Below are positions 1 to 9,286 of a DNA stretch of 38,455 nucleotides, piece by piece. The notes beneath the pieces were generated by a model. That model did not search any database and had not been told where the DNA came from. It saw only the letters and a list, made by a program, of their open reading frames with translations. Origin of the DNA: Actinomycetota bacterium (GTDB lineage Bacteria > Actinomycetota > Thermoleophilia > Gaiellales > Gaiellaceae); NCBI GenBank assembly GCA_005883335.1, contig VAXM01000097.1, positions 1 through 38,455 on the forward strand, given 5' to 3'. The position numbers and the translations under genes were made by a program. Each line of letters begins with the position of its first letter. The first letter of the stretch is position 1.

Positions 1-108
1 CACATGCGCACCGCGATCGCGCGTCACCCAGACGATCGCGCGACCCGAGCTCGACGAGCCGCAGCCGGCCGCCAGAACGACGGCGCCGAGAAGCGGGACC
101 AGCCTCAC
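1..108 (-). CDS. Partial lipoprotein, probable DUF4430 family (N-terminus only; continues off the left edge)
   Basis: Reverse strand from GTG at 108 reads VRLVPLLGAVVLAAGCGSSSSGRAIVWVTRDRGAHV..., with lipobox LAAGC. Its start overlaps the upstream TGA (GTGA). The WVTRDRG motif resembles DUF4430 lipoproteins. Confidence 0.6.
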   Translation of the reverse strand, partial: MRLVPLLGAVVLAAGCGSSSSGRAIVWVTRDRGAHV

Positions 109-701
109 GCCAGCGCGTTCGAGCGAACGGCGCCCTTCAGCGTCGCCCGGACGAGCCCGCGATGCGCCCCGACGCACGCCGAGCCGGCCCGCGCCCGCAC
201 CGAGCGTCCGTCCACGCGCAGCATCGCTCCGCGAGCCGCGCGCGTCTTCCCCGCGTCGTCCTGCGCCAGCACGCGGTAGCAGCCTCGGCTCGCGCGCCGG
301 AGCACGAGCGTCGGCGGCCCGCCGCTCGGCCCGAAGGTCGCCCAGTACCACAGCACGCGGTCGCCGGGCTTCAGCACGACCGCGTCCGCTCCGACCGGCG
401 GCGAGAGGCCGTTCACCTTGAAGACCCAGCCGCTCGAGCCCCCGGCCGGGTAGCGGCCGATCTGGTCGACGTACGGCCCGAAGCCGCCGACCGTCACGTG
501 GTAGTAGAACTCGCCGGCCAGGCTGGCCGACTCCAGCGCGTCGAGCGCGTTGGCCTTGACCGCAAGCGTCGGCTCGGCAGCGCCGAAGATCGTCTGCGTC
601 TTGCCCTCGACGCGCACGTGCACGCGAAGAGCCAGAGCGGCCGGGACCAGCAGCAGAGCGGCCGCAGAGACGGCCAGGAAAATCAAGAGTCGCCTTGACA
701 C
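105..701 (-). CDS. Secreted DUF4430 (transcobalamin C-terminal-like) domain protein
   Basis: GTG start at 701 after a strong SD (GGAAGGAGG); signal peptide VSRRLLIFLAVSAAALLLVPAALA; DUF4430 hallmark SSGWVFKVNGLSPPVGADAVVLKPGDRVLWYW. Translated within the 105..803 ORF. Confidence 0.8.
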   Translation of the reverse strand: MSRRLLIFLAVSAAALLLVPAALALRVHVRVEGKTQTIFGAAEPTLAVKANALDALESASLAGEFYYHVTVGGFGPYVDQIGRYPAGGSSGWVFKVNGLSPPVGADAVVLKPGDRVLWYWATFGPSGGPPTLVLRRASRGCYRVLAQDDAGKTRAARGAMLRVDGRSVRARAGSACVGAHRGLVRATLKGAVRSNALA

Positions 702-736
702 GAAGCCTCCTTCCGCGAGGGGTTCGGTTTCATGGC

Positions 737-880
737 GGGCGGCAGGTCTTCTGACTCGGGGCTCCCTCCTCCGCCGCCTTCCCGGCCCGCGGGCCAGTGG
801 CACTTCGGCGGGGAGCGTCTCCCCTCACAGCGGCGGGACCGTCCCGGATTTCCACCGGATTCCCTTACCGCTCGCCTATC
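737..880 (-). promoter_or_regulatory. Cobalamin (B12) riboswitch
   Basis: Reverse strand reads GGTAAGGGAATCCGGTGGAAATCCGGGACGGTCCCGCCGCTGTGAGGGGAGAC...GTGCCACTGG...GGGAAGGC...GAGTCAGAAGACCTGCC. It contains the canonical B12 box and conserved core elements in the correct order. Confidence 0.95.
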
Positions 881-905
881 GAGGCCGAGCCTATCATGGC
901 CTCCG

Positions 906-1310
906 ATGCGCCAATTCAAGCTCTGGGGGCCGGTCGTCGTTTGGGCGGCGCTGATCTTTGCCGTCTCGTCCGTCCCGTCCCTGTCGTCGGGCCTCGGCAC
1001 CTGGGACGAGGTGCTGCGCAAGGGCGCGCACGTCACCGAGTACGCGATCCTCGGCGCACTGCTCTTGCGCGCGCTCAGCCGGCAGCTCCCGGCACTGCTG
1101 ATCGGGATTGCCTACGCGGGAACCGACGAGCTGCACCAGCACTTCGTCCGCGGGAGACACCCGTCGCCGTTCGACGTTGCATTCGACGCGTGCGGCCTTG
1201 CCCTCGGGCTGCTGGTCGCCCTCTCCGTACAATCCCAGCGTGCCCGAGCGAAGAAGCTTCGACGACCGTCAGCTCGACGCGATCCTCGAACGGCTGGACG
1301 CGCTCCGTGA
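906..1310 (+). CDS. VanZ-like family membrane protein
   Basis: MRQFKLWGPVVVWAALIFAVSSVPSLSS...KGAHVTEYAILGALLLRAL...AYAGTDELHQHFVRGRHPSPFDVAFDACG is typical of the VanZ family. Confidence 0.85.
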   Translation: MRQFKLWGPVVVWAALIFAVSSVPSLSSGLGTWDEVLRKGAHVTEYAILGALLLRALSRQLPALLIGIAYAGTDELHQHFVRGRHPSPFDVAFDACGLALGLLVALSVQSQRARAKKLRRPSARRDPRTAGRAP

Positions 1311-1464: not shown

Positions 1465-2882
1465 CGGTAGATGTTCAAGACCCCGGACTTGCTGTGCGCG
1501 TTGGCGTCGCCTTCGGGAAGCGCGATGCGGCCGTCCGTGACGATCGGGCTCTCCCAGTGGCCGCCGCCGGCCGGAAGCTGCGCCACCAGCGCACCAGTGG
1601 CCGGCCGGAAGACGTTGAGCCCGCCGTTCGGGTCGTAAACGTAGAGCAGCCCGCCCGCGACCACCGGGCTCGTTCCCGCCTCGCCGCGCCTCCAGGCAAC
1701 CTGCAAGCGCCCGCCGCTCAGCACGTAACCCCAGACTCCCGAGTCGTTGCCGACGAACATCCGCACGGTCCCGCCGGCCCGCCAGACCGCCATCGTCGAG
1801 AACACGCCGGACGTCCCGGGCGCCGGAACCGTCTCGAGCTCGCCTCCGGTCTGCCCGAGCGTGCCGCCGAGCTCCGGCAGCCTGAGCAGGCGGATGATCC
1901 CGTCCTTGCCCGACTGGGCCGCGAGGCTCGCCCCGAGAATCGCCGGCGCCGTCGAGCCGAGATCGACGTCGCCGCCGTCCAGCTGCGCCTGGTTGCGCGG
2001 CGTCCAGTTGTGCAGAAGCCGCGCCGCGTTCGCCGAGAGCATCAACGCGCTGTCCCCCCAGTACCGACGACCGTCGAAGCGTGCATTGCCGGTTGCGACG
2101 AGCAGGTTGCCGGAGCCCGGGACGACGACGGCGCCGGAGCGCGCCCAGATCGCCGAGTCGCTCTGCGGGCACGAGGACGGCGCGATCAGCGTGTGACGGT
2201 CGCTGCAGAGCGAATTCCAGACGTGCACGATCCGGCCTCGTCGCGAGATCGCCGCGACATGGCCCTGATACGGCGGCGCGTCTCCGATGTAGCCGCCGGT
2301 GGTCGCGATCAGGAGCCCACGCGAGAAGTTCAACGGCGTGCCGAGCTTCTCGCGCGACGGTAGCTTCGTAATCGAGACCGACCAGACGACGGCGCCGCTC
2401 GCGACGGTGAGCTTGTAGACGCGTCCGTTCGGCGCCTCGGCGTAGACGTAGCGGCGGGTCGGATCGGCGATCGGGCTCGAGTTCGTGATCCGGTCCGACC
2501 CGGCCCACGATGCGTAGCCCCGCGGCTTGAAGCGCCAGAGGATCGCGCCCGAGCGGGCATCGACCGCCACCGTGATCCCGTACGACGTCGTGACGAAGAA
2601 GACGTCGTGGGCGCGGCCCCGGACGCGCACCCCGCGCAGGTAGATCGGCGAGGAGTCGGCGGTTCCGGGGAGGCGAACCTGCTGCCGGTGCAGCTCGCCG
2701 ACCTTCCCGGCCGCGATCCCGGTCCGGGCCGGCCCCGAGTTGCTGCGCGCCGCGTCGTAGCCGAACCGCGTCCAGTCTCCCCCGAAGCGCGAGGCGCTCA
2801 CCGAAGGAGACTGCTGCTGCGAGCTCCCGCAGGCCGTCAGCGCGAGCACCGCGCCGATCGCGAGCAGAAGCCGCAGACGCAT
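1461..2882 (-). CDS. PQQ-like beta-propeller lipoprotein
   Basis: MRLRLLLAIGAVLALTACGSS (lipobox) followed by PQQ-type propeller repeats (VAVDARSGAILWRFKPRG, VYKLTVASGAVVWSVSI, GLLYVYDPNGGLNVFRPATGALVAQLPAG). Confidence 0.8.
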   Translation of the reverse strand: MRLRLLLAIGAVLALTACGSSQQQSPSVSASRFGGDWTRFGYDAARSNSGPARTGIAAGKVGELHRQQVRLPGTADSSPIYLRGVRVRGRAHDVFFVTTSYGITVAVDARSGAILWRFKPRGYASWAGSDRITNSSPIADPTRRYVYAEAPNGRVYKLTVASGAVVWSVSITKLPSREKLGTPLNFSRGLLIATTGGYIGDAPPYQGHVAAISRRGRIVHVWNSLCSDRHTLIAPSSCPQSDSAIWARSGAVVVPGSGNLLVATGNARFDGRRYWGDSALMLSANAARLLHNWTPRNQAQLDGGDVDLGSTAPAILGASLAAQSGKDGIIRLLRLPELGGTLGQTGGELETVPAPGTSGVFSTMAVWRAGGTVRMFVGNDSGVWGYVLSGGRLQVAWRRGEAGTSPVVAGGLLYVYDPNGGLNVFRPATGALVAQLPAGGGHWESPIVTDGRIALPEGDANAHSKSGVLNIYR

Positions 2883-3982
2883 CAGCGCGTCAGCTTGTAG
2901 ACCTGGCCGTCGAGCGAGGTCGCATACAGCTCGCCCGCAGCGTCCTGGCCGAACGACGAGAGCGAGCCGACCTTGAGCCGCTCCTTGCGCTTGCTCGCGA
3001 GCTTGCCGTGCACGGCGCGGAGGCTCCAGATCTCGCCCGTGCAGAAGTCCCCGTAGAAGTAGCGCCCCCGCGCGGAGGGCACCGCCTTGCCGCGATAGAC
3101 GTAGCCGCCTGTGACCGAACAGCGGCCGCCGTCGTGCTTGTAGGTGACGATCGGGAAGACGAGCTTGCCGGCGCGGCTCGTCCTCTGCCCGGAGGTGAAG
3201 CGCGCGCGGCCCTCCCACACGCGCCAGCCGTAGTTGTTCAGGGAGCGCTGCTGTTTCGGCGTCCGCACGTCGACCTCTTCCCACTCGTCCTGGCCGACGT
3301 CGCCGATGTAGAGGTCGCGCGTGGCGCGGTCCCACGAGAAGCGCCAGGGGTTCCGCAGCCCGTAGCCGACGATCTTCCAGCTCGCTCCGGCCTTGTTGAC
3401 GTTCAGGCGCAGGAGCTTCCCGAGCTGGGAGCCCAGGTTCTGCGAGTGGTTGTGCGGGTCGCCGCCCGAGCCGCCGTCGCCGGTGCCCGCGTAGAGCAGG
3501 CCGTCCGGCCCGAATTGCAGCTGGCCGCCGTCGTGGTTGTCGAACTCGCGGTGCGAAACGCGGAGGAGCGACTTCCCGGTGTTCGGCAACCCGACCGTCC
3601 CGTTCGACTGGAACTCGTAGACACGAACGTCTCCGGTCGTGTCGTTGAAGTAGAGGAAGAAGCGGTGGTTCTTGGCGTAGCCCGGATGGAACGCGATCGA
3701 CAGCAGGCCCTGCTCGCCGCCGCTCTTGACCAGGTTGCTGATGTCGATGAACGGCTGCGCGCGGAGCTTCCCGTTGACGAGCACGCGGACGACGCCCGGC
3801 TGCTCGGTGACGTAGAGCACGCCGCGCTGCCCGGGCGCGGACGTCACGTACGTCGGCGAGTCGAGCCTCGACGCGATCTGGCGCAGATGGAATTGCGCCG
3901 CGCTCGGCGACGCGCCGCCGCCGCAAGCCGCACCGGGCAGCGCGGCCGCGAAGACGAAGACGAGGACCGCGAGCGCCCGCAT
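2882..3982 (-). CDS. PQQ-dependent sugar dehydrogenase (glucose/sorbosone dehydrogenase family) lipoprotein
   Basis: PTYVTSAPGQRGVLYVTEQPGVVRVL...GEQGLLSIAFHPGYAKNHRFFLYFNDTTGDVRVYEF...NHDGGQLQFGPDGLLYAGTGDGGSGGDPHNHSQNLGSQLGKLLRLN; lipobox LPGAAC. Confidence 0.92.
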   Translation of the reverse strand: MRALAVLVFVFAAALPGAACGGGASPSAAQFHLRQIASRLDSPTYVTSAPGQRGVLYVTEQPGVVRVLVNGKLRAQPFIDISNLVKSGGEQGLLSIAFHPGYAKNHRFFLYFNDTTGDVRVYEFQSNGTVGLPNTGKSLLRVSHREFDNHDGGQLQFGPDGLLYAGTGDGGSGGDPHNHSQNLGSQLGKLLRLNVNKAGASWKIVGYGLRNPWRFSWDRATRDLYIGDVGQDEWEEVDVRTPKQQRSLNNYGWRVWEGRARFTSGQRTSRAGKLVFPIVTYKHDGGRCSVTGGYVYRGKAVPSARGRYFYGDFCTGEIWSLRAVHGKLASKRKERLKVGSLSSFGQDAAGELYATSLDGQVYKLTR

Positions 3983-4647
3983 CAGGTCTTGAGGAGCACC
4001 CTCCGCAACTCGTCCTCCTTACCCGGCTGGAGGATCGCGAGAACCTGGTCGCCCGGGTGCAGCTCGGTCGAGCCGACCGCGATCTCCGAGCGGCCGTTGC
4101 GCATGATCGAGATCAACCGCGAGCCCTCGGGCAGGTCGAGCGCCTCGACGCGCCGGCCGGCGGCCGGAGCGCCCTTGTCGATCATCACTTCGACGATCTC
4201 GAGGTTCTCCTTGCGCAGCTCGAGCAGGTGGACGAGGTCGTGCTCGGGGACCTCGTGCTCGATCAGCGCCATCAGCCCGCGCGTGGCCGAGACCGTCGGC
4301 GAGACCCCGAGGAGGTCGAAGTGGGCCTGGTTGCGCGGATCGTTGACGCGGGCGATTACCTTCGGGACGCCGTACTTCTCGCGCGCGAGCTGGCTGATCA
4401 CGAGGTTGTCCTCGTCGTCCCCGGTCAGCGCGGCGACGACGTCCGGCGGCCGGGCGATCCCGGCGCGCTCGAGGATGTGGATCTCGGTCGCGTCGCCGAG
4501 GATCACGTGGTGCTCGAGCTCCTGCTCGAGCCGCTCGAACCGGTCGCGCCGCTGCTCGATCAGCGTCACCTCGCGCTTCCCGTCCTGGAGGAGCGTCCGC
4601 GCGAAGTTGGCGCCGACCTTCCCGCCGCCTGCAACAAGGATGTACAT
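3982..4647 (-). CDS. TrkA family (RCK/KTN) potassium uptake regulatory protein with TrkA-C domain
   Basis: MYILVAGGGKVGANFARTLLQDGKREVTLIEQ...VILGDATEIHILERAGI...ALTGDDEDNLVISQLAREKYGVPKVIARVNDPRN; C-terminal GSRLISIMRNGRSEIAVGSTELHPGDQVLAI. Confidence 0.9.
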   Translation of the reverse strand: MYILVAGGGKVGANFARTLLQDGKREVTLIEQRRDRFERLEQELEHHVILGDATEIHILERAGIARPPDVVAALTGDDEDNLVISQLAREKYGVPKVIARVNDPRNQAHFDLLGVSPTVSATRGLMALIEHEVPEHDLVHLLELRKENLEIVEVMIDKGAPAAGRRVEALDLPEGSRLISIMRNGRSEIAVGSTELHPGDQVLAILQPGKEDELRRVLLKT

Positions 4648-5079
4648 CTAGGTGGTGGCGGCCTCCGCGGGGCGGATCTCGCACGCGCGAACCGCGTCCA
4701 GCAGGACCTCGATCGCAACCGAGGTCGGGCAGACGGTGCGCAGGCCGCGCTGGCGGTAGAACTCGGCGCGCGCGGGGTCGAGTAGGCGCACGACGACGCA
4801 TTGGTTGTCGAAGCGCTGCTGTGCGACCTGGCCGATGACGATGTTCGTGTTGTCGCCGTCGGTGGCCACTACGACGGCGTCCGCCTCCTCAATCCCTGCC
4901 TCGCGCAGGACCTCGATGTCCATGCCGTGGCCGAGCACGAAGCCGCCGCTCCAGTGGTCACCGAGGCGCGTGAGCGCTTCTTCCTTCTCGTCGACCGCGG
5001 TGACCTCCCAGCCCTCGCGATCCAGCTGGAGGGCGATGCTGGAGCCGACGCGGCCGCATCCGATTACGAGTGCATTCAT
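4648..5079 (-). CDS. TrkA-N (RCK N-terminal) domain protein
   Basis: MNALVIGCGRVGSSIALQLDREGWEVTAVDEKEEAL...VLGHGMDIEVLREAGIEEADAVVVATDGDNTNIVIGQVAQQRF; abuts the second TrkA gene. Confidence 0.9.
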   Translation of the reverse strand: MNALVIGCGRVGSSIALQLDREGWEVTAVDEKEEALTRLGDHWSGGFVLGHGMDIEVLREAGIEEADAVVVATDGDNTNIVIGQVAQQRFDNQCVVVRLLDPARAEFYRQRGLRTVCPTSVAIEVLLDAVRACEIRPAEAATT

Positions 5080-5203: not shown

Positions 5204-7099
5204 TCACTCAGGATTCGAGCCGTCTTCCTCCATCACGCCTTCGGGAAAGGCCACGACGATCACCTCGCAGGGAGCTTTTCGGAGCACGTATTCGACGGTC
5301 GGCGAGAAGAACCTGGACTGCCGCCGCCAGCGCGGCGCGGAGCCGAGGACGATCAGGTCGGCCCCGCTACGCTCGGCTTCGTTGACGATCGCCTCGCCGA
5401 TCGAGCGGGCGCGTACCGTCTCGCCGCGCACCGGCACGCCGTGGTCTGCTCCGAGTAGCTGCGCCTCGGCCAGCGAAGCGGCGGCGCTTTCCTCCTCGAG
5501 GTCCAGCTCGGCGTCGATCGCCGTATCCAGCGGGACGCGAATCACGTGCAAGGCCTCCACTTCGGCGCTGCGCTCCTGAGCCAGCTTGACCGCGGTTGCG
5601 ATCATCTCCTCCCCGATCACCCCGAGCTTCATCGGCACGAGGATGCTCGAGAACTCGGTCTCGGGCAGATCCTCGGAAGGAGCCTCGATGCGCTCGAGCA
5701 GGCCCTCCCCCCGCTCGCGCCGGACGAGCCCGTAGATGACGAGCCCGACGATCAGCCAGATCGGCCCGCCGTACCGAGCGCCGTCGTGGGTGACGAGCGC
5801 CATGAGGAAGATCACGAACGTGCAGGCGGCGCCGACCAGGGCCGGCAGCGGCACCTCGACGCCCCGCAGCGGAATCCCGCCGGGGGCTCGGTACGGCCGT
5901 TTGAGCTCCGGCTCCGTGAAGCGGAGCCTGATGACGGCGAGCTGCGCGGCGGTGAAGGCCGCGAGCACGCCAAAGCTGAACAGGCTCGCGAGGAAGACGA
6001 CGGTGTCGGTGAGCAGCGACGAGATGAGGAGGAGCGCGATCGAAATCGCAGCGGCGGCGACGATCGCCTCGGGCGGCACGAGCGTCCGCCGGTTGAGGCG
6101 GCCGAACGCGCGCGGCAGCTGGCCGTGCTCGCCGAGCGAATGGGCGAGCCGCGTGAATCCCGAGATCGAGGTGGTGATCGCAACGAGCAGGATCACCGCG
6201 CCGGTGAGGCCGACGTAGAGCCGCAGCGCCGTCACCAGTCCGCCGGGGACGTGGCCGTGGAGCGCGGCGACAATCCCCATCATCGGCGAGTGCAGCCAGC
6301 GCGTTCCGAGCTGCGTCGTGCCGTGATCGGCCGGGAATGCGGACAGCGCGACGAGGCCGATCGCGACGTAGATCAGGACGACGAGCCCGATCCCGGAGAA
6401 GAGGCTCCGCGGCAGGTCGCGGCCCGGCTCGCGCGTCTCCTCGGCGAGATTCGCGACCGTCTCGAGGCCCGTGTAGGCGAGCATTGCCAGCGGCAGCGCG
6501 AAGGCGATCTGGTGCCACGACGGCTCGGAGCCGATCGAGACCCCGCGCGTGAGGGCGTCGCCGGAGAACAGGAAAGCGAAGCCGAGCGCCACGAGCCCGA
6601 GCTGCGTGACCAGGTCGAGGACCGCGACGACGATCCCGTAGCGGTAGAAGGCCGAGCGCCGTACGAGCCGGAGCGCGGCGACGCCGACGATCACCGCGAC
6701 CGCGACGATCAAGTCGGAGGGATGCCTGCCCAGCGCCGCGACCTTGAAGGCCGCACCGAGGTAATGCGGCAGGAAGAACGCCGAGAGCGCGATCACGATC
6801 AGGTAGTCGAGGAAGAGCGCCCAGCCGGTCAGGAAGCCGGCCAGGTCGTTGAACGCGCGCCGAACGAAGGTCGCGGCCCCGCCGGTCTCGGGGATCGCGG
6901 CGGTGCCCTCGGCATACGAGAGCGAGACGACGAGGAAGAGCGCACCCACGAGCGCGAGCACTTCCGGGGTGAGGCCCAGCGCGTGCAGCGCGATGATCCC
7001 GAGCGCGACGTAGATCGAGGAGGCGATCTCGCCGTACGCGACCGAGAAGAGGGCCGGCGCATCGAGCACCCGCTGGAGCCCCGAGATCTTGCGCGCCAC
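5204..7099 (-). CDS. APC superfamily permease with C-terminal universal stress protein (UspA) domain
   Basis: About 12 TM segments (ALFSVAYGEIASSIYVALGIIALHALGLTP..., TGLETVANLAEETREPGRDLPRSL) followed by a UspA domain (SSILVPMKLGVIGEEMIATAVKLAQERSAEVEALHVIRVPL...GADLIVLGSAPRWRRQSRFFSPTVEYVLRKAPCEVIVV). Confidence 0.88.
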   Translation of the reverse strand: MARKISGLQRVLDAPALFSVAYGEIASSIYVALGIIALHALGLTPEVLALVGALFLVVSLSYAEGTAAIPETGGAATFVRRAFNDLAGFLTGWALFLDYLIVIALSAFFLPHYLGAAFKVAALGRHPSDLIVAVAVIVGVAALRLVRRSAFYRYGIVVAVLDLVTQLGLVALGFAFLFSGDALTRGVSIGSEPSWHQIAFALPLAMLAYTGLETVANLAEETREPGRDLPRSLFSGIGLVVLIYVAIGLVALSAFPADHGTTQLGTRWLHSPMMGIVAALHGHVPGGLVTALRLYVGLTGAVILLVAITTSISGFTRLAHSLGEHGQLPRAFGRLNRRTLVPPEAIVAAAAISIALLLISSLLTDTVVFLASLFSFGVLAAFTAAQLAVIRLRFTEPELKRPYRAPGGIPLRGVEVPLPALVGAACTFVIFLMALVTHDGARYGGPIWLIVGLVIYGLVRRERGEGLLERIEAPSEDLPETEFSSILVPMKLGVIGEEMIATAVKLAQERSAEVEALHVIRVPLDTAIDAELDLEEESAAASLAEAQLLGADHGVPVRGETVRARSIGEAIVNEAERSGADLIVLGSAPRWRRQSRFFSPTVEYVLRKAPCEVIVVAFPEGVMEEDGSNPE

Positions 7100-7227: not shown

Positions 7228-7397
7228 TTCTTACGGCGGCGCAGGAGGTATAGCCGTCCGGCGCCGAGCGCGATGAAGAGCAGGCCGATCACGATGCCCA
7301 CGCCGCCGCCGGCGATGGCGGTCCTGACGATCAGCGCGATCCCGATGCCGATCGCGACGACCCCGAACGTGCCGACGAGGTCTCGGTACAAGTTCAC
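7224..7397 (-). CDS. 57-aa membrane protein between two APC-Usp genes
   Basis: Not in the ORF track. Reverse strand reads VNLYRDLVGTFGVVAIGIGIALIVRTAIAGGGVGIVIGLLFIALGAGRLYLLRRRKN*; GTG start overlaps the upstream TGA (GTGA); two TM-like segments. Confidence 0.7.
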   Translation of the reverse strand: MNLYRDLVGTFGVVAIGIGIALIVRTAIAGGGVGIVIGLLFIALGAGRLYLLRRRKN

Positions 7398-9286
7398 GCC
7401 GCCTTCGGCGCGGCGGCGACCATCACCCGGCAGGGCGCGTTCTTGAGCACGTAGTCCGCGGTGTCGCCGAAGATCCGGCCGCGCCGCCGCCGCACATCCC
7501 TACGCGGCGCGCCCATGACGATGATCTCGCTGTTGCGCCGCGTGGCCTCCTCGACGATCGCCGGGCCTGCCCGGCGCCCGCGCACGATCCGGCCGATCAC
7601 GTTCACGCCGTAGGCGTCGCCGATCGCCCGGGCCTCGTCGAGCACTTCGTTCGCCCGCTCCTCCTCGCGCGGCAGCTCGGCGTCGAGCGGCAGCTCCAGC
7701 GGCACCTCGATCACAGTCAACGCGACGATCGAGGCGGCGCGCTCCGTCGCCAGCCTGCAGGCGAGGTCGATCGCCTCCTCCGACTCGTGGCGGCCGACGA
7801 TCGGCACGAGCACGTTCCGGTACTCCAGCGCAAGGGCCGGCCCCATCGCGACGGGCGCGCGAATCGTCTCGGTCAGCGGCACGTGCAAGACCCTGCGGCG
7901 GTAGGCCCAGTAAGCGACAAAGCCCACGATCAGCCAGCCGAGGCCTGCGTAGCGGGTCCCCGGGCTCTGGACGACCACCACGAGCCACGCCAGCGCCGTC
8001 GCCGTCCCGCCGAAGACCGCGAACAGGGGCCAGTCGACTCCGCAGAAGCGGAAGTTCGGCCGCGCGCGGAACGCGAGCTCTTCGTCGCGATACCGTCGCC
8101 GAAGCTGGACGACCGACGCGTGCGCGACCGTGAACGAGAGCATCGCCCCGAACGAGTACATCGTCCCGAGGAACTTCGTCTTGCCCGGAAGGAGGATGAG
8201 GATCGAGACGAAGCCGGCGAAGACGAGCAGTGCGAGCCACGGCGTCTTAAAGCGCGGGTGGAGGCGCCGGAAGACCTCCGGCAACTGCCGGTAGGTCGCC
8301 ATCGAATACGTGATCCGCGAGGCGCCGATGATCCCGGCGTTGGTCGCGATGAAGAGGATCGTCCCGGCGAGCAGGCCGACGTAGACCTTGAGCACGCTCA
8401 ACAGGGTTCCGTGGATGCCGAGGTTCTCGACGAGGCCGAGCACGGGGTCGTTCTGGAAGCCGTGCTGCTGCGGCGGCAGCGCGAGCAGCGTCGTCTCCTT
8501 GCCGGCGATGTGGTGAACCGGCAGCGCCGAGAGCGCGATCATCGGCAGCGTGAAGTAGATCGCGAAGACGGCGACGGCGACCCAGCCGATCGAGCGCGGG
8601 ATCGCCTTGACCGGGTCGCGCGTCTCTTCCGCGAGGTTCGACACGGTCTCGATCCCGGTGTAGGCGATCATCCCCACCGGAATCGCGAGGAAGAACTGCG
8701 ACCACGTGGGTGCGGTGCCGAAGTGGACGTTGCCGGTCAGCGTCGAGGGGCTGAAGATCAGCGCGAACCCGATCAGCACGAGCAGGACCTGGGTCCCGAA
8801 GTCGATCAGGGCGAGGAAGATGTTCAGGCGCGCCGACTCCTGAATCCCGACGACGTTCAGAAGCACGAGCACGACGATCACCGCCGCGCCGCCGATGATG
8901 TCCCAGGGGTTCTGTCGCAGCGGTCCCCAGAAGATCGAGAGGTAGTGCGGCACGAAGAACGCCGAGATGGCGATCGTGATGATGTAGTTGAGCATCTGGG
9001 CCCAGGCGGCGCCGAACGACGCGAGCTCGTTGAAGGCGTGGCGCGCGAAGCTGGAGGAGCCGCCGGCTTCGGGGTAACGGACCGTTCCCTCCGCGTAGGT
9101 GAGCGCCGTCGCGGCGAAGAAGACGCCCGCGATCACGAAGACGAGGGGCGTCAGTCCGAGCGCGAAGACGGCGGTGACGCCGAGCGCGTAGTAGATCGAC
9201 GAGCCGACGTTCCCGTAAGCCGTGGCGAACAGCGCCGGCGTGCCGAGCACGCGCTCGAGCCGCTGCTGCCGCCTACGCCGTGACAT
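7394..9286 (-). CDS. APC superfamily permease with C-terminal universal stress protein domain (paralog of 5204..7099)
   Basis: ALFATAYGNVGSSIYYALGVTAVFALGLTP...TGIETVSNLAEETRDPVKAIPRSI...; C-terminal NVLVPIVGRHESEEAIDLACRLATERAASIVALTVIEVPLEL...VLKNAPCRVMVAAA. Confidence 0.88.
   Translation of the reverse strand: MSRRRRQQRLERVLGTPALFATAYGNVGSSIYYALGVTAVFALGLTPLVFVIAGVFFAATALTYAEGTVRYPEAGGSSSFARHAFNELASFGAAWAQMLNYIITIAISAFFVPHYLSIFWGPLRQNPWDIIGGAAVIVVLVLLNVVGIQESARLNIFLALIDFGTQVLLVLIGFALIFSPSTLTGNVHFGTAPTWSQFFLAIPVGMIAYTGIETVSNLAEETRDPVKAIPRSIGWVAVAVFAIYFTLPMIALSALPVHHIAGKETTLLALPPQQHGFQNDPVLGLVENLGIHGTLLSVLKVYVGLLAGTILFIATNAGIIGASRITYSMATYRQLPEVFRRLHPRFKTPWLALLVFAGFVSILILLPGKTKFLGTMYSFGAMLSFTVAHASVVQLRRRYRDEELAFRARPNFRFCGVDWPLFAVFGGTATALAWLVVVVQSPGTRYAGLGWLIVGFVAYWAYRRRVLHVPLTETIRAPVAMGPALALEYRNVLVPIVGRHESEEAIDLACRLATERAASIVALTVIEVPLELPLDAELPREEERANEVLDEARAIGDAYGVNVIGRIVRGRRAGPAIVEEATRRNSEIIVMGAPRRDVRRRRGRIFGDTADYVLKNAPCRVMVAAAPKAA

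Follow-up and report, generated by a model that had tools for sequence, protein, structure and literature searches.

A cobalamin riboswitch heads a probable vitamin B12 uptake operon encoding a transcobalamin-like protein in a Thermoleophilia genome

What is made under the control of a cobalamin riboswitch that stands at the very end of a contig, followed on the minus strand by two overlapping genes (here D1 and D2) for exported DUF4430 proteins? The window analyzed was the whole of contig C165 (G000:C165:1-38455; 38,455 nucleotides) of a Thermoleophilia genome of 2.3 Mb in 185 contigs, estimated to be 91.7% complete, and the minus-strand operon is interrupted at position 1, where the contig ends. 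A first-pass annotation, made from the letters alone, had read the locus as an extracellular B12-scavenging module, and this reading gained support from an ECF transporter with a CbrT-like S component and from the predicted fold of D1. We consider it probable, inferred steps included, that an operon for B12 uptake, repressed by B12, starts at the left end of the window. The features at that end are listed in Table 1.

Table 1. Features of the operon at the left end of the window
Feature	Position	Strand	Basis
Cobalamin riboswitch aptamer (RF00174), complete	724..906	-	cmscan, 96.3 bits, E = 5.9e-23
Expression-platform hairpin, CCUC-(GCGGAAG)-GAGG	706..720	-	Read from sequence
D1, secreted transcobalamin-beta-like protein (DUF4430/SLBB), 198 aa	105..701	-	PF14478, AlphaFold2, Foldseek
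D2, 5' part of DUF4430 lipoprotein gene, 36 codons, lipobox LAAGC	1..108	-	Sequence, orthologues

The minus-strand riboswitch claimed from the sequence was recovered over the full RF00174 model (positions 1 to 189, against a gathering score of 31.5 bits), but it does not end at 890 as first drawn and reaches the position given in Table 1. No second RF00174 element was found elsewhere in the host genome, making this the sole one found. The element was present at all 20 of the relatives' DUF4430 loci that were scanned, and at 7 of 11 scanned loci in Bacillota. In one relative, whose genome also has a D1-D2 pair on contig C226, the end of another contig (L104, G035:C18) holds a second cobalamin riboswitch and, after it, the first part of a D1-like gene.

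In the leader between riboswitch and gene, the sequence CCTCGCGGAAGGAGG ahead of the start codon is near-identical in most of the relatives, and CCUCGCGGAAGGAGG, immediately upstream of the start codon, shows almost no variation among them. The latter can, as judged from its sequence, fold into a short hairpin masking the Shine-Dalgarno site, and the GGAGG of D1 (706-710) sits within this hairpin. Because the Shine-Dalgarno strand scarcely varies, the hairpin has no support from covariation. Covariation of the kind expected from a kissing loop, joining the riboswitch's P5 loop to that of the leader hairpin, was sought, but the loops extracted gave no convincing matching pattern. The conserved hairpin over the Shine-Dalgarno site is consistent with translational OFF control of D1.

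D1 starts with GTG, has GGAGG just upstream, begins with what reads as a signal-peptide-like segment, and matches PF14478 (DUF4430) with 44.6 bits against a cutoff of 23.8, as expected from the earlier description of a secreted DUF4430 protein with a Shine-Dalgarno site after the riboswitch. Its C-terminal region is beta-rich and carries a pair of cysteines (141 and 176), which had also been picked out by eye and which are conserved in 21 of 24 orthologues. An AlphaFold2 model built from a 24-sequence alignment (pLDDT, 92.7; pTM, 0.84) was compared with the PDB by using Foldseek. Ranks 1 to 19 included 17 matches to transcobalamin, intrinsic factor, or haptocorrin, the other 2 being chains of the bacterial protein 3u7z, and the matches beyond rank 19 were background, with E values of 0.086 or worse and probabilities mostly below 0.5. 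The top match was 5no0, the isolated human transcobalamin beta domain (E = 1.1e-4; probability, 1.00; target TM, 0.72), in agreement with the transcobalamin-like fold proposed for D1.

The model also places a helix at residues 52 to 63, followed by strands at 67 to 72 and 75 to 81, which form a hairpin, and then by a strand at 90 to 96. Burroughs et al. (2007, PMC1796856) give a beta-hairpin inserted after the helix as the mark of the transcobalamin clade of SLBB domains; in the D1 model, this hairpin is combined with the beta-grasp. Searches against solved structures with the single D1 sequence gave no meaningful match, and a profile search returned transcobalamin chains only, at an E value of 0.16 that is not significant on its own. 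No BtuF-type binding protein was found at the locus; D1 matched DUF4430 only. As for 3u7z, this is RUMGNA_00854 of Ruminococcus gnavus, labeled "putative metal binding protein," and its rank alongside transcobalamin for the D1 model raises the possibility that the label needs revision and that the protein binds B12 as a member of the DUF4430 type.

The GTG start of D2, at position 108, overlaps the TGA of D1 as GTGA, so that the overlapping lipoprotein gene noted earlier stands, lipobox included. Its likeness to DUF4430 was confirmed through orthologues, since the domain itself lies beyond the visible fragment: PF14478 matched in 14 of 14 D2 orthologues, and the visible fragment aligns with an orthologue. 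No periplasmic binding protein family was matched by the 14.

DUF4430 was found in 40 of 61 related genomes, mostly as a tandem pair, and the gene order around it was examined in longer stretches of 20 genomes with a simple gene caller and HMMs. The common order is riboswitch, D1, D2, EcfT, fused EcfA, S component, and a secreted toroid protein, for which the corresponding Pfam families are DUF4430, DUF4430, CbiQ, two ABC_tran, DUF6580/ECF_trnsprt (the latter weak), and a squalene-cyclase/prenyltransferase toroid. In one relative (L030), for instance, CbiQ scored above its cutoff and two ABC_tran stretches were present, corresponding to EcfT and two ATPase domains. The S-component profile gave one strong match among solved structures, 6fnp_A (E = 6.5e-28), which the S protein of the host genome also matched by itself (E = 3.3e-12). 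This structure comes from ECF-CbrT, a transporter shown to import cobalamin (PMC5997447). The downstream genes, on which the first reading had hung, encode an ECF transporter with a CbrT homologue as its S component, and this homology is the strongest single indication that the substrate is B12. We regard the system as very probably a B12-regulated B12 uptake operon.

The remainder of the host operon appears to lie on another contig. G000:C156 carries a truncated EcfA followed by the S component and the toroid side by side. With a single DUF4430 locus and a single S gene in the genome, and with the genes so ordered in relatives, the simplest reading is that C156 is the likely continuation of the operon on C165, the join itself being inferred. 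The gap between the two contigs is estimated at about 1.4 kb and would contain the larger part of D2, all of EcfT, and the beginning of EcfA; EcfA is only partly visible in the host genome, and EcfT is expected inside the gap.

The host has apparent uses for the cofactor. Its genome contains an above-cutoff match to an AdoCbl-type ribonucleotide reductase (NrdJ), a protein with a B12-binding domain, and a PduO-type adenosyltransferase. CbiC of the corrin pathway was not found in this 92%-complete genome, and the absence of this one marker at that completeness is suggestive of B12 auxotrophy.

The last gene of the operon encodes the secreted toroid. The host protein is 51% identical to an orthologue (L043) for which the predicted model (pLDDT, 94.7) has 12 helices after a signal segment. 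Both by fold and by sequence, the toroid comes nearest to squalene-hopene cyclases and prenyltransferases. Transcobalamin was absent among the 50 Foldseek matches listed for the toroid, its alpha domain was not among the matches listed when sought by sequence, and the animal alpha-domain family PF01122 gave no match at E values up to 1 or 0.1. On the model, then, the toroid belongs to the same alpha6/alpha6 fold class as the transcobalamin alpha domain, a class that is not specific to transcobalamin. All 13 of 13 toroid orthologues also match the NCBIfam family SCO2321_fam weakly (best E = 4e-22, below its cutoff), which suggests from sequence a related toroid in Streptomyces; the literature searched held no description of a role for the latter. 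In one genome (G012), the toroid gene (L098, G012:C1) lies on a different contig from the rest of the operon, with no RF00174 match nearby.

The distribution of D1 and the toroid is linked. D1 occurs in 35 of the 61 genomes, the host included, and 32 of these 35 have a toroid; the three without a full one are fragmentary assemblies, and a toroid fragment is seen at a contig edge in G017. Five relatives have only the lipoprotein-type DUF4430 protein, D2, and none of the five has a toroid, an absence that is real in three of them (L022 to L024), because their contigs extend beyond the S gene. A toroid without a D1 match was seen in three genomes (G002, G054, and G058). Fisher's test for the co-occurrence of D1 and toroid gave P = 1.4e-10 over all 61 genomes and P = 0.019 over the S-positive genomes only, both values ignoring relatedness. 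Most clearly, one actinomycete metagenome genome separates the genes physically: one contig (L067) carries riboswitch, D1, and toroid as overlapping genes with no adjoining transporter, and another (L112) carries riboswitch, D2, EcfT, EcfA, and S. The six genes are thus sorted into two modules, one of D1 and toroid and one of D2 and the ECF genes. These components are also found in Bacillota, where DUF4430 and toroid are joined in one protein at some loci (L070, L073, and L094), and in Brevibacillus (L068) they are separate proteins, both with S-layer (SLH) cell wall anchors. We take D1 and the toroid to be likely partners. Some relatives have D2 and the ECF genes without D1 or toroid, so these two are not essential to the importer.

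How might these parts work together? ECF importers are described as binding their substrate directly in the S component. In the mechanism that we propose, low intracellular cobalamin would cause the riboswitch to keep the ribosome site of D1 open, and D1 and the toroid would be secreted as two separate chains that enclose one molecule of B12, closing on it in the manner of transcobalamin with its beta and alpha domains. Membrane-anchored D2 would receive the loaded carrier or dock it at the CbrT-like S component, which would import B12 with the ECF ATPase. That D1 and the toroid jointly bind B12 as a two-chain carrier has the odds slightly in its favor. Docking of the carrier by D2 on the S component is a possibility that falls a little short of even, and the full proposal, in which the two-chain clamp is the true extracytoplasmic substrate-binding protein of the ECF transporter and D2 its docking lipoprotein, is more tentative still. 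If true, ECF importers could work by relay, and the two-chain carrier would be a living, split version of the architecture that animals use to carry B12.

The same genes could be assembled differently. D1 and D2 might both pair, as beta proteins, with one toroid and build a single complex that sits on the ECF transporter at the cell surface; they are adjacent, overlapping DUF4430 genes, paired extracellular SLBB proteins have been proposed to form complexes (Burroughs et al., PMC1796856), and both the beta protein and the toroid of Brevibacillus are SLH-anchored. Against this, the genome with loci L067 and L112 parts D1 and toroid from D2 and ECF, and D2-ECF occurs without any toroid, and we judge the single complex to be rather unlikely. 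A more distant reading is that the toroid is a secreted enzyme resembling terpene cyclases or prenyltransferases, or else a wall-binding module, while B12 is handled by the beta proteins and ECF alone. Its top Pfam, PDB, and Foldseek matches are indeed squalene-hopene cyclases and prenyltransferases, and a DxDD-type motif is kept in 2 of 13 orthologues; in the other 11, however, the DxDD-like position reads DxND, and a signal segment with a single 12-helix toroid contrasts with the roughly 500- to 630-residue chains of the best-matching squalene-hopene cyclases. The toroid also occurs along with D1 and the B12 riboswitch, and Bacillota have it fused to DUF4430, all of which leaves the enzyme or wall module improbable.

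The substrate, too, could be another one. The T component belongs to the CbiQ family, named for cobalt transport, and an operon importing cobalt or some other substrate could have a riboswitch that supports B12 synthesis. The S component is CbrT-like, however, D1 is transcobalamin-like, and CbiC was not found in the host genome; this reading is very improbable, and cobalt transport was rejected on the grounds of the S component and CbiC.

Parts of this system have been foreseen. Burroughs, Balaji, Iyer, and Aravind (2007, PMC1796856) described a transcobalamin-like SLBB clade in bacteria with fusions to alpha/alpha toroids, paired paralogues, and CbiO/CbiQ neighbors, and put forward a role in scavenging B12 as well as a transfer to animals. 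Shared with those systems are a secreted DUF4430/SLBB protein, a second paralogue, a toroid, a CbiO-like ATPase, a CbiQ-like membrane protein, and the predicted B12 scavenging. Their lineages were low-GC Gram-positive bacteria, planctomycetes, and euryarchaea, and the toroid was fused to SLBB, whereas the operon described here is from Thermoleophilia, encodes toroid and beta protein in separate genes, includes a CbrT-like S component, and is headed by a cobalamin riboswitch. The word "riboswitch" does not occur in that paper, and its gene-context section names no S component. A later experimental test of DUF4430 was not found in the open-access literature searched.

Comparison with animal transcobalamin, intrinsic factor, and haptocorrin rests on the models, in which D1 would share the beta-domain fold, including the post-helix hairpin, and the toroid would share the 12-helix alpha/alpha class. 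Unlike in the animal carriers, toroid and beta-grasp are encoded by two genes as separate chains and not as one polypeptide, the toroid has no PF01122 match, and the putative carrier would serve an ECF importer and not receptor endocytosis. With ECF-CbrT of Lactobacillus delbrueckii (6FNP, PMC5997447), the system shares a homologous S component, EcfT and ATPases of the same class, and B12 as the expected substrate, but here a dedicated ECF module shares its operon with genes for a toroid and beta-like proteins that are extracellular; a term search of the CbrT paper (PMC5997447) surfaced no extra carrier of this kind.

Capture of B12 at the cell surface is familiar from Bacteroides, where BtuG acts with TonB-dependent BtuB. 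Surface-exposed B12-capturing lipoproteins of that genus (PMC6143338) likewise pass B12 from the cell surface to a transporter, although theirs is a different system, in diderm bacteria. The present analysis adds a cobalamin riboswitch that regularly heads the operon, an S component of the CbrT type, toroid and beta proteins encoded separately and linked in their occurrence, a natural split into two modules that are each under a riboswitch, a D1 model of high confidence, and the distribution in Thermoleophilia. The operon joins three things known apart, namely the bacterial transcobalamin-like DUF4430 proteins, the CbrT-type ECF transporter for B12, and the cobalamin riboswitch. It assigns a testable function to DUF4430, allows the use of dedicated extracellular carriers by ECF importers to be tested directly, and offers a concrete two-chain system for testing the origin of the animal B12 carriers.

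Several other genes of the window deserve mention. A divergent plus-strand gene (about 906-1310), VanZ-like by eye, begins at the riboswitch, and similar proteins with the pattern FSS(I/V)P.LG.GLG.WD..LRK.AH..EYA are encoded at the corresponding position ahead of D1 in many relatives. Farther along, on the minus strand, are overlapping lipoprotein-like genes for a PQQ-type beta-propeller and a glucose/sorbosone dehydrogenase (1461-2882 and 2882-3982) and tandem amino acid permeases (5204-7099 and 7394-9286), each with a C-terminal universal stress protein (Usp) domain fused to it. Directly downstream of these permease-Usp genes lie two adjoining genes for TrkA-N proteins (3982-4647 and 4648-5079, minus strand), one with TrkA-C and one without.
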